This document shows positions 6,171 to 17,835 of a stretch of 36,365 bases of DNA, one piece after another. This DNA is from Natronorubrum sulfidifaciens JCM 14089 (GTDB taxonomy: Archaea; Halobacteriota; Halobacteria; Halobacteriales; Natrialbaceae): the NCBI RefSeq assembly GCF_000337735.1, contig NZ_AOHX01000002.1, forward strand, positions 118,957-155,321. Reading direction: 5' to 3'. Made by a program: the position numbers and the translations under genes. Within the stretch, counting starts at the first letter, position 1; the number at the start of each line of letters is the position of its first letter. The notes beneath the pieces were generated by a model. The model was not told the origin of the DNA, did not search any database, and worked only from the letters and a program-made list of their open reading frames with translations.

Positions 6171-7043
6171 ATGGACGGTCGCGCCGTTGCCCCAGCAGCC
6201 GGAACGGTTCTCAACGCGCTTGCAACCGGAACCGGCTCGGCGTTTGCGATCGATCTCGAGACGACAGCCACAGTCGAACTCACTGACGATGGCGACGTCG
6301 ACGCCGAGATCGCCGGCCAGCCCGACGCCGATACGACGCTCGTCGAGCGCTGTGCCGAGTTCACGATCGCCGACTACGCCGACGCTGCAGGACTCGACGA
6401 GGCAGCAGTGGGCGCTCGAGTGGAGACGAACAGCGACGTCCCGATGGCTTCGGGATTGAAGAGTTCAAGCGCTGCGGCGAACGCAACCGTGATGGCGACG
6501 CTCGACGCGCTCGAGATCAGCGACGCGGTCGATCGAATCGACGCCTGCCGACTCGGTGTGCAAGCGGCCCGTGACGCCGGCGTCACCGTCACCGGCGCGT
6601 TCGACGATGCCAGCGCGAGCATGCTCGGCGGCGTGACGGTCACCGACAACACGGCCGACGAACTGCTCGCCCGCGAAGCGGTCGACTGGCACGCGCTGGT
6701 CTATACGCCACCCGAACAATCGTTTAGCGCCGACGCCGACGTCTCCGCCTGCGAGCGAATCGCACCGATGGCCGACCTCGTCGCCGAACTCGCCTTGGAT
6801 GGGCGCTACGGCGAGGCCATGACGGTCAACGGCTTCGCGTTCTGCGGTGCGCTCGACTTTTCGACCGGACCGATGATCGACGCGTTGCCCGACGTCGCCG
6901 GCGTCTCGCTGTCCGGCACCGGGCCGAGCTACGTCGCCGTCGGCGATCGACGGACGCTCGAGACAGTGCAGGACCGATGGACCGAACGCGACGGAACGAC
7001 ACGATTACTGCAGACGCGAACCGACGGGACACAGATCCAATGA
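6171..7043 (+). CDS. aroK: shikimate kinase, archaeal GHMP type
   Basis: 290 residues. It phosphorylates shikimate at the 3-hydroxyl with ATP in the chorismate pathway. Archaea use a GHMP-superfamily kinase unrelated to bacterial AroK. The ATP-binding motif PMASGLKSSSAAA is at about residues 91-103, the N-terminal APAAGTVLNAL segment is the substrate/ATP strand-helix, and GVSLSGTGPSY near the C-terminus is the third GHMP motif. The start ATG follows a TATA-like box by 26 bp. Its stop codon overlaps the chorismate mutase start in ATGA, so the two pathway enzymes are translationally coupled. Confidence 0.95.
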   Translation: MDGRAVAPAAGTVLNALATGTGSAFAIDLETTATVELTDDGDVDAEIAGQPDADTTLVERCAEFTIADYADAAGLDEAAVGARVETNSDVPMASGLKSSSAAANATVMATLDALEISDAVDRIDACRLGVQAARDAGVTVTGAFDDASASMLGGVTVTDNTADELLAREAVDWHALVYTPPEQSFSADADVSACERIAPMADLVAELALDGRYGEAMTVNGFAFCGALDFSTGPMIDALPDVAGVSLSGTGPSYVAVGDRRTLETVQDRWTERDGTTRLLQTRTDGTQIQ

Positions 7044-7360
7044 CTCGAGAGACAGCCACGAACGAAGAGACGGAGAACCGAACGCCGGACGAAATGAGCC
7101 TCGACGAACTGCGCGAGGAGATTCAAACGATCGACCGTGAGATCGTCGAGCTCATCGCCCAGCGAACGTACGTCGCGGACACGATTGCCCAGGTCAAAGA
7201 CGAACAAGGGCTGCCGACGACCGACGAAAAGCAAGAGCAGCAAGTGATGGATCGGGCGGGATCAAACGCAGAACAGTTCGACGTCGACGCCAACCTGGTG
7301 AAAGCGATCTTCCGACTGTTGATCGAGTTGAACAAGGTCGAGCAGCGTGAGAATCGGTAG
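7040..7360 (+). CDS. aroQ: chorismate mutase, AroQ type
   Basis: A 106-residue all-helical chorismate mutase that converts chorismate to prephenate for phenylalanine and tyrosine synthesis. The long first helix carries LREEIQTIDREIVELIAQR and is followed by VKDEQGLPTTDEKQEQQV, the usual arrangement of active-site Arg, Lys and Glu/Gln residues in AroQ. A Thr/Glu-rich N-terminal leader of about 18 residues precedes it. The start is taken at 7040, where ATGA overlaps the shikimate kinase stop; an earlier in-frame start would overlap far more. The 3' end of this gene is partly duplicated 830 bp downstream (8162-8200). Confidence 0.93.
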   Translation: MTRETATNEETENRTPDEMSLDELREEIQTIDREIVELIAQRTYVADTIAQVKDEQGLPTTDEKQEQQVMDRAGSNAEQFDVDANLVKAIFRLLIELNKVEQRENR

Positions 7361-7373: not shown

Positions 7374-7408
7374 TTTCACGTATCTACTACTGTTTCTCCT
7401 CGCCATTG

Positions 7409-7492
7409 TAGTAACAACTGCAACTAGTTACACACTGATCGCCGAGCTGTTTGGCGATCAGGTGTGCATTGACTTGCAGTGGCTACTATAGC
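7409..7492. repeat. 84-bp palindromic element, copy A
   Basis: Runs from TAGTAACAACTG to GGCTACTATAGC and folds almost end to end into an imperfect hairpin with about 35-bp arms and the apex GATCGCC...GGCGATC. A second copy at 16409-16492 is about 88 percent identical. Differences at 7421/7476, 7443/7453 and 7444/7452 keep or alter base pairs together, so the stem appears to be conserved. No coding potential. It lies between the two direct-repeat copies and upstream of the RHH/RelE pair. Confidence 0.85.
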
Positions 7493-7545: not shown

Positions 7546-7830
7546 ATGTCCAAAGCATCCACAAGCAACGGCGACGACGAGATCGTCACGGTAAACTTCA
7601 AAGTCACACGGTCGTTTCTCAACGAGATTGAAGACACATGGCAAGGACGCGGATTCAACAGCCGGAGCGAATTTATTCGGTATACCTTACGCGATGCTGT
7701 CGAACATCCCACGTTCGACCGCGATGAACTCGTCGCACTCCTCCAAGCTGAAGAGGACGTCCGTGAAGAACAGACGATGAGTGCCGAAGAAGCGCGCGAA
7801 CGATTCGGTACTGGCGATACGAATGAGTGA
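7546..7830 (+). CDS. ribbon-helix-helix antitoxin
   Basis: 94 residues. The N-terminal ribbon (about residues 12-20, IVTVNFKVT) and two helices with FNSRSEFIRYTLRDAV form a ribbon-helix-helix DNA-binding domain of the CopG/ParD kind. The rest is an acidic helical tail, typical of the toxin-wrapping part of such antitoxins. It presumably binds its own promoter as a dimer and neutralises the toxin encoded next, whose start lies inside the last 8 bp of this gene. The start is the first Met of the frame. The pair sits between two copies of a duplicated aroQ 3' end, which suggests arrival as a mobile or recombined module. Confidence 0.85.
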   Translation: MSKASTSNGDDEIVTVNFKVTRSFLNEIEDTWQGRGFNSRSEFIRYTLRDAVEHPTFDRDELVALLQAEEDVREEQTMSAEEARERFGTGDTNE

Positions 7831-16387: not shown

Positions 16388-16408
16388 CCTCTGCTGTCCA
16401 GAAATTCA

Positions 16409-16492
16409 TAGTAACAACTGAAACGATTTACACACTGATCGCACAGCCGTCGTGCGATCAGGTGTGCATTGACTTTCAGTGGCTACTATAGC
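16409..16492. repeat. 84-bp palindromic element, copy B
   Basis: Second copy of the element at 7409-7492 (about 88 percent identical, 10 substitutions, no gaps). Its apex is GATCGCAC...GTGCGATC. It lies in the gap between the convergent enoyl-CoA hydratase and riboflavin-pathway genes and overlaps the last codons of the latter: the right end, read on the minus strand, gives the final residues SYSSH and the TGA stop. Confidence 0.85.
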
Positions 16493-17150
16493 TATCGACC
16501 GTCCAGCACAACAACACGCCGTCGTCGAGTCGTTCGACCCGCTCGAGGCCCAACAGCGGAAACTCGTCGATGAACCCGCCGCCGTCGGCCAGCGTGGGCG
16601 CATCACGGCCGCCGATCAGTTTCGGCCCGACGAAGACACGGAGTTCGTCGACCAGACCGACCTCGAACAGCGAGAAGATGAGTTCGCCGCCGCCTTCGAC
16701 CATGAGCTGCTCGAGGCCCTGTTCCTGAAGCGCCGCGAACGCCCGCAGGAGAGCAACCCGATCGTCGCCGGCAGTCACGAGTTCCGCGCGATTGGCGAGC
16801 TCCATGCGTCGGTCGATCGGTGCCGTCTCACTGAGACAGACGTACGTCGTCGCCGCGTCGTCGAGGATCGCAGCATCGTCCGGTGTCCGCCCCTTCGAGT
16901 CGATGACGACTCGAGCCGGCTGTTCAGGCTCGCCGCGCTCGAGTCGTTGGTGACACAACTGCTCGTCTTTGACGGTGAGGTGTGGATCGTCCGCGAGAAC
17001 GGTGCCGACGCCGACGACGACGGCGTCGCTGTCGGCGCGGAGTCGATCGACGCGAGCGAAATCCGCCTCGCCACTGATTGCGATCTGATCGCGCTGGCGC
17101 GAGGAGAGTTTGCCGTCCGCACTCATGGCGGCGTTAACGACGACGTGCAT
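16476..17150 (-). CDS. arfC: 2,5-diamino-6-ribosylamino-pyrimidinone 5'-phosphate reductase (RibD C-terminal family)
   Basis: 224 residues. This single-domain RibD-reductase-like enzyme reduces the ribosyl side chain of the pyrimidine intermediate in archaeal riboflavin and F420 precursor synthesis, using NAD(P)H. Family features: N-terminal VVVNAAMSADGKLSS, DAVVVGVGTVLADDP, and the nucleotide-binding GLEQLMVEGGGELIF. The start MHVVVNAAMS is the family-normal one. The last five codons and TGA stop come from palindromic element copy B, so the C-terminus was probably remodelled when the element inserted; the sequence up to LLCWTV looks like a normal family end. Expression from the minus strand is independent of the neighbours. 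Confidence 0.9.
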   Translation of the reverse strand: MHVVVNAAMSADGKLSSRQRDQIAISGEADFARVDRLRADSDAVVVGVGTVLADDPHLTVKDEQLCHQRLERGEPEQPARVVIDSKGRTPDDAAILDDAATTYVCLSETAPIDRRMELANRAELVTAGDDRVALLRAFAALQEQGLEQLMVEGGGELIFSLFEVGLVDELRVFVGPKLIGGRDAPTLADGGGFIDEFPLLGLERVERLDDGVLLCWTVDSYSSH

Positions 17151-17280
17151 ACACGTGGCTGCGTGGTGGACCCTAAAGAAGACACCGCGTACTGGTCGAC
17201 CCGCTCCTCGCGAAGGGATCCGTGTCGTTTGGGCCGGCCGCTGACCAGCGGCGCTGTTGCCGATGCGACCAGTAGCGTTG

Positions 17281-17835
17281 TTACCGACGCGCGACGATCG
17301 CAAGCGTCTCGGGGCGATCTCGAACGGATTCGACGGTAAATCCAGCGTCCTCGAGGTGGCTCGTCACGTCCTCACAGCCGAAGCGTTCGTCCATCGACGG
17401 GCCGTCCTCGCCGGTGCCGTCGGCCGACCAGTCAACCGTCACCAGTCGCCCACCCGAGCGAATAACACGGGCGAGTTCCGCCATCGTCTCCTCGGTCGCG
17501 TACTCGTGGTGGGTCATGACCGAGAACGCGGCGTCGAGTTGGCCATCATCAAAGGGCAGCGACGAGACGTTGGCCGTCACGGGTTCGACGTTCGGTTCCA
17601 TGCCGTTCTCTCGATGGATGTCGTGCATCTCCGACTGAACATCGACGGCGTGTACTGTCCCAGCGAACGGCGCAACATCAGACGTATAAAAGCCAGTCCC
17701 GGAGCCCAGATCGGCGACGACGGCGTCGTCGTCGAGGTCGAGCATCTCGAGCAACTCTTCTCGGGAACAGAAGCGGTAACGAGACGGGTCCTCGAGGGCG
17801 TCGGCCCGGTCGATCGGGAACGTGTGAAATCCCAT
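17281..17835 (-). CDS. class I SAM-dependent methyltransferase
   Basis: 184 residues. The Rossmann-fold motif I VADLGSGTGFYTSDV (about 40-54) binds S-adenosylmethionine; the acidic motif II is in HAVDVQ, and the motif IV region is LDAAFSVMTHHEY. Short for the family, so the protein is a minimal single-domain enzyme of the UbiE/arsenite-methyltransferase-like group. The substrate is not recognisable: quinone, arsenic, small molecule or other. The start is the first Met (MGFHTFPIDR). It is in the same direction as the riboflavin gene, 130 bp upstream of it, so co-transcription is possible but not shown. Confidence 0.85.
   Translation of the reverse strand: MGFHTFPIDRADALEDPSRYRFCSREELLEMLDLDDDAVVADLGSGTGFYTSDVAPFAGTVHAVDVQSEMHDIHRENGMEPNVEPVTANVSSLPFDDGQLDAAFSVMTHHEYATEETMAELARVIRSGGRLVTVDWSADGTGEDGPSMDERFGCEDVTSHLEDAGFTVESVRDRPETLAIVARR

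Follow-up and report, generated by a model that had tools for sequence, protein, structure and literature searches.

A 36,365-nucleotide stretch of the genome of the haloarchaeon Natronorubrum sulfidifaciens JCM 14089 (contig NZ_AOHX01000002.1, positions 118,957 to 155,321; hereafter the window) carries two copies of a short, gene-less palindrome, raising the questions of what kind of element this is, what moves it, and why its two arms have remained complementary while its sequence changed. The initial annotation described an 84-bp element at 7409 and at 16409. Copies are present at both places, and the last four of the 84 bases lie outside the element: comparison of filled with empty sites gives an element proper of 80 bp (TAGTAAC…GGCTACTA) with a duplicated TA on each side. 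Copy 1 occupies 7409–7488 on the plus strand (TAGTAACAACTG...CAGTGGCTACTA), with borders drawn from at least 11 relatives in which the site is empty, and from a 42-copy alignment. The filled/empty alignment places its target-site duplication at 7407–7408 on the left, where TA has since changed to TG (empty sites mostly have AATA where copy 1 has ATTG), and at 7489–7490 (TA) on the right, followed by host bases at 7491–7492 (GC). Terminal inverted repeats (TAGTARCMACTG at both ends of the MITE) form an outer stem, with a 5′ arm at 7409–7423 (plus strand, alignment columns 3–17) and a 3′ arm at 7474–7488 (minus strand, columns 68–82, reading TAGTAGCCACTGCAA inward); the sixth and eighth bases of the left arm (7414 and 7416) mismatch the right end in most copies. 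The upper stem, also on the plus strand, comprises a 5′ arm at 7431–7444 (columns 25–38, with six pairs changed on both sides) and a 3′ arm at 7452–7466 (columns 46–60, with a bulged G at 7462), and encloses an apical loop at 7445–7451 (plus strand), where longer relatives carry about 100–290 bp of extra sequence. Copy 2 (16409–16488, plus strand) is likewise 80 bp and near the family consensus; its left duplication, placed at 16407–16408 from the family, is now CA, and its right TA (16489–16490) coincides with the edge at which right-flank homology to relatives starts.

The joined flanks of twelve copies were compared with ten genomes of the genus, and for seven copies a clear uninterrupted site with a single TA was found in same-genus genomes. 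In one example, empty ...CTCCTCTAGCAG... corresponds to filled ...CTCCTCTA[TAGTAAC...CTACTA]TAGCAG..., TA being present once in the former; at one of the seven sites, two further relatives have TC. The copy at C25:45425 has a less clear empty counterpart, and the joint flank search for copy 2 returned no empty site. At least 11 relatives have no element at the position of copy 1, and their site typically reads ...CTCGCCAATAGCTTCAGCG..., and in most ...CCAATAGC...; empty sites were found for eight copies in total, copy 1 among them. The left TA is altered in several copies, including both in the window. For 59 copies, TA is present at both edges; the target is CTAG in 30 of them and a different NTAG in 18 more, while CTAG accounts for 1.8% of the TA sites in the window. 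IS630 elements are known to move by cut-and-paste into TA with TA duplication (PMC2170065), and IS630 itself has been reported to prefer CTAG (Tenzen and Ohtsubo 1991, cited in PMC2170065).

Copy 1 is flanked by a chorismate mutase gene (6977–7360, PF01817) and by a gene starting at 7546 for a small ribbon-helix-helix-like protein, which may resemble the haloarchaeal cell-division regulator CdrS. With its right end 58 bp upstream of the start codon at 7546, and in an intergenic region whose sequence is well conserved among relatives without a copy there, the insertion may alter the promoter of this gene. At copy 2, a RibD_C-domain gene (16476–17303, minus strand) appears to end inside the element, the right end of which supplies its last codons (TAT AGT AGC CAC TGA).

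The element is dispersed far beyond the window. The 3.46-Mb draft source genome contains 44 matches, about 42 of them of the full 84-bp type, on both strands and on many contigs, and an end-motif search adds diverged copies as well as longer ones of 184–372 bp. The longer relatives (L076–L081, L087 and L093; e.g. G000:C2:65661-65980 and C29:194703-195074) have unchanged ends and stem and a GC-rich, internally repeated insert in the apical loop, and the occurrence of common inserts suggests that the long versions spread in that form. The copies at C30:58599 and C40:16849 are unlinked yet identical, a sign of recent movement. The source genome also holds two copies of different subtypes directly abutting head-to-tail with 82-bp spacing (C47:19336-19501), and two identical head-to-tail copies 117 bp apart (C40:16849-17049). 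Similar sequences had been suspected in other haloarchaeal genomes, and matches were indeed found in 86 of 293 genomes of the order (29 of 87 genera) and in 44 plasmid records, haloarchaeal throughout among the matches listed; the phage records searched contained none. The earlier reading as a small non-autonomous mobile element with related inverted-repeat ends is thus well founded: the element is short and without coding capacity, has many dispersed copies, leaves empty sites with TA duplication, prefers CTAG, and resembles an IS630 element at its ends. It is very probably a MITE of the IS630 (Tc1/mariner) type.

As for the pairing, the two window copies differ at exactly 10 positions (7421, 7425, 7427, 7443, 7444, 7448, 7451, 7452, 7453 and 7476), as annotated, and pairing is kept at all six of the differing positions that are paired, in three stem pairs. 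Two of these are true compensatory changes (7421/7476 and 7443/7453, C:G versus A:T), and the third (7444/7452, G-T versus C:G) is a wobble, paired in RNA and a mismatch in DNA; the remaining four differences are in loops, internal or apical. Each copy folds into a hairpin far more stable than shuffled sequence gives (z from -4.2 to -7.5 over the two strands, equalled by none of 200 shuffles), and two copies on their own are weak evidence for compensation. The excess covariation predicted for a larger set was found in 69 distinct copies from the source genome and other genomes, in which 94.0% of cells are paired, 78 cells carry a change in both partners (17.4 ± 3.7 in shuffles), and the covariation score is 0.137 against 0.054 (matched by 0 of 500 shuffles); the shuffle control ignores the relatedness of the copies, a worry that is lessened, not removed, by slid controls (2–10 double changes) and by close copy pairs taken disjointly, which give 41 double changes (33 from Watson-Crick to Watson-Crick) against 16.6 expected and 5–10 in slid controls. 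At one column pair, 30/54 (7436/7460), all four Watson-Crick pairs are seen (T-A, C-G, A-T and G-C); a TG/CA doublet has changed to GC/GC in both arms together (columns 30–31 and 53–54); several copies of family f4 in alignment A1 have AATTG with CAATG where most copies have AACTG with CAGTG; and both ends of the element change in concert between lineages. Nearly all copies keep two mismatched column pairs, 8/77 and 10/75, and the bulge at column 56. One lineage (G007, several contigs) has symmetric ends (TATAGTAGCAACTG), the usual 8/77 and 10/75 mismatches having become pairs.

Compensatory change had been taken by the initial annotation to indicate selection on the folded form. The covariation is real, and the step from it to selection is not established, since templated correction or end-tracking can produce covariation too. 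The retained pairing accompanies an inverted symmetry of the element that is almost complete. In the leading view, it would be maintained by hairpin-templated (quasipalindrome) correction during replication together with the requirement that a single transposase accept both ends, a DNA-level constraint on the fold being a possible addition; templated correction, ends adapting to one transposase and DNA-level cruciform selection fit the present data equally well. Only a little short of an even chance is given to the view, which can stand alongside the MITE reading, that the covariation is purely mutational in origin, template switching within the palindrome during replication copying changes from arm to arm and selection on the fold playing no part. 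Such an origin is suggested by the doublet exchange, which looks like a single event, and by mispairs without strand preference, whereas the persistence of the two end mismatches and of the bulge argues against it; yet the 8/77 mismatch mirrors the asymmetry of the IS ends.

A mover for the MITE was sought among the IS630-family (DDE_3) genes, which are common in the host family and fall into several subgroups. One group, labelled ‘ISNma7’ and ‘ISNpe3’ in the annotation of named plasmids, measures about 1,059 bp with the duplicated TA of each side counted, and has its transposase in two overlapping frames. With the TA included, its ends are TATAGTAAC.../TATAGTAG... (left TA-TAGTAAC..., right, read inward, TA-TAGTAG...), and its outermost bases, A-left/G-right asymmetry and TA duplication are those of the MITE, the outer bases of the right arm of copy 1 (7474–7488) being those of the right end of the IS. 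The CTAG preference is shared as well, this being the target in 23 of 34 insertions of the group. By contrast, the IS is about 1.06 kb long, encodes a transposase and has inner ends only partly like those of the MITE: the MITE and the IS consensus agree fully only over the outer 6–7 bp just inside the TA, and further inside the right ends are alike at 12 of 21 positions (p = 1.5e-4 against shuffles, 4e-5 against random genomic sequence), the likeness of the left ends being weaker (p about 0.006–0.017). Within the MITE reading, a transposase of the ISNma7/ISNpe3 group probably moves the element: supplied in trans, it would recognise both near-identical ends, excise the element by cut-and-paste, and insert it at TA, preferably within CTAG, with duplication of the TA. 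In a genome that is probably Natrialba magadii (G071, C3, about 209–211 kb; L096), an IS630 of this group is inserted at an internal CTAG of a MITE copy.

The initial annotation proposed looking for a transposase with matching terminal repeats, and the outcome is divided, the outer ends of this group matching those of the MITE and the gene being missing from the source genome, in which no ISNma7-like transposase was found. Copy-rich relatives also lack it, and over 293 genomes there is no co-occurrence of the MITE with an ISNma7-group transposase (odds ratio 0.91, p = 0.80). Loss of a transposase need not remove its MITEs. Archaeal MITE-like repeats without a partner have been reported (PMC3852290). 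The missing partner, the only partial likeness of the inner ends and the presence of several further IS630 subgroups in the host family lend some weight to the alternative that a MITE of the same class is moved by another IS630 subgroup with TAGTARCMACTG ends of its own, the ISNma7 group being only a cousin. This is a reasonable second choice, held back by the asymmetry and target common to the MITE and the ISNma7 group, and by the other IS630 loci examined, none of which had such ends. The other IS630 subgroups were rejected as parents, with ends that differ wherever these could be located. Among the ends listed for the source genome, G071 and G007, no autonomous element with TAGTARCMACTG at both ends 0.9–2.5 kb apart was found.

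It is rather unlikely that a transposase or host protein reads the folded (cruciform or hairpin) form, such that only well-paired copies keep moving; if true, structure-dependent mobility would explain the recurrent compensatory change deep inside the element, beyond the transposase-binding ends. Considerably more doubtful is a role of the inserted copies as structured RNA (a terminator, an RNA-stability element or a small RNA) with selection on the transcript fold. The strong covariation, the intergenic location of 42 of 42 copies according to a rough gene caller, and the orientation of copies in tandem gene pairs, 15 of 21 lying on the strand of the genes, all favor such a role; against it, the 15:6 split is not significant, and the tested sites are empty in relatives, so that positions are not conserved between species. 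Since G-U is not commoner than A-C (24 versus 34 cells, and 19 versus 18 column types), there is no support for a structured RNA on either strand. Membership of a structured RNA family is not supported either, the window having no Rfam match and the tolerance of G-U showing no strand specificity.

Least credible, and scarcely to be entertained, is a REP- or PATE-like element moved on single-stranded hairpins by a Y1 (IS200/IS605, RAYT-type) transposase, for although the imperfect palindrome with conserved mismatches and bulge, the high copy number, the intergenic location and the richness of haloarchaea in such elements (PMC3119063) would suit it, the paired terminal inverted repeats, TA duplication and CTAG target do not, IS605-type elements and PATEs having neither terminal inverted repeats nor TA duplication (PMC3119063). 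The sole Y1 (IS200-type) transposase gene found in the source genome (G000:C26:317396-317757; L031 and L032) has an in-frame stop and is split into two matches, and was rejected as the mover on this account. REP/RAYT systems (20–40 bp palindromes with Y1) were likewise set aside, the element here being 80 bp with TA duplication and the Y1 gene interrupted.

Short transposase-free repeats, namely MITEs, PATEs and SMRs, are also found in the haloarchaeon Haloquadratum walsbyi, in which the SMRs are about 80–110 bp with inverted ends (PMC3119063). The PATEs there lack inverted repeats and duplications, and the SMRs lack duplications and any relation to known transposons (PMC3119063). PATEs are ruled out here by the inverted repeats and TA duplication, and SMRs by the duplication and the ends related to IS630; by the definitions of that study, the element counts as a MITE. 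An archaeal relative in kind is the ISMma9-associated MITE of Methanosarcina mazei, which is likewise linked to IS630 and has short inverted repeats, with a length of 89 bp (PMC3852290, Table 4). It is present in 5 copies in one methanogen, with no direct repeats listed (PMC3852290), whereas the present family was found in 29 of the 87 sampled haloarchaeal genera and numbers dozens of copies in some genomes. Among bacteria, RUP of Streptococcus pneumoniae, which was attributed to IS630-Spn1 from its ends and TA targets (PMC2229807), Correia/NEMIS of Neisseria and ERIC of enterobacteria are likewise gene-less palindromes of about 100 bp with TA termini, target duplication and high copy number, mostly intergenic (PMC2229807). 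By analogy, the element would work like RUP, and resembles Correia and ERIC. It differs from these in hosts and sequence, in its length of 80 bp, in its clear CTAG target within a GC-rich host, in its strong arm-to-arm covariation, and in having longer versions with an apical-loop insert. A literature search, with ISfinder and most subscription journals outside its scope, found no earlier description of the MITE family.

The element is thus ordinary in kind and unusually widespread, and stands out mainly by its well-kept hairpin pairing. Exact borders and a likely mover can now be given for a repeat present in roughly a third of the sampled haloarchaeal genomes. Through its CTAG sites, and the empty sites in sister species, the MITE is a marker of recent insertions, and it provides a test case for why palindromic MITEs retain their pairing. 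The case also shows that, where the sequences compared are copies of a palindromic transposon, covariation is by itself no evidence of a functional RNA.
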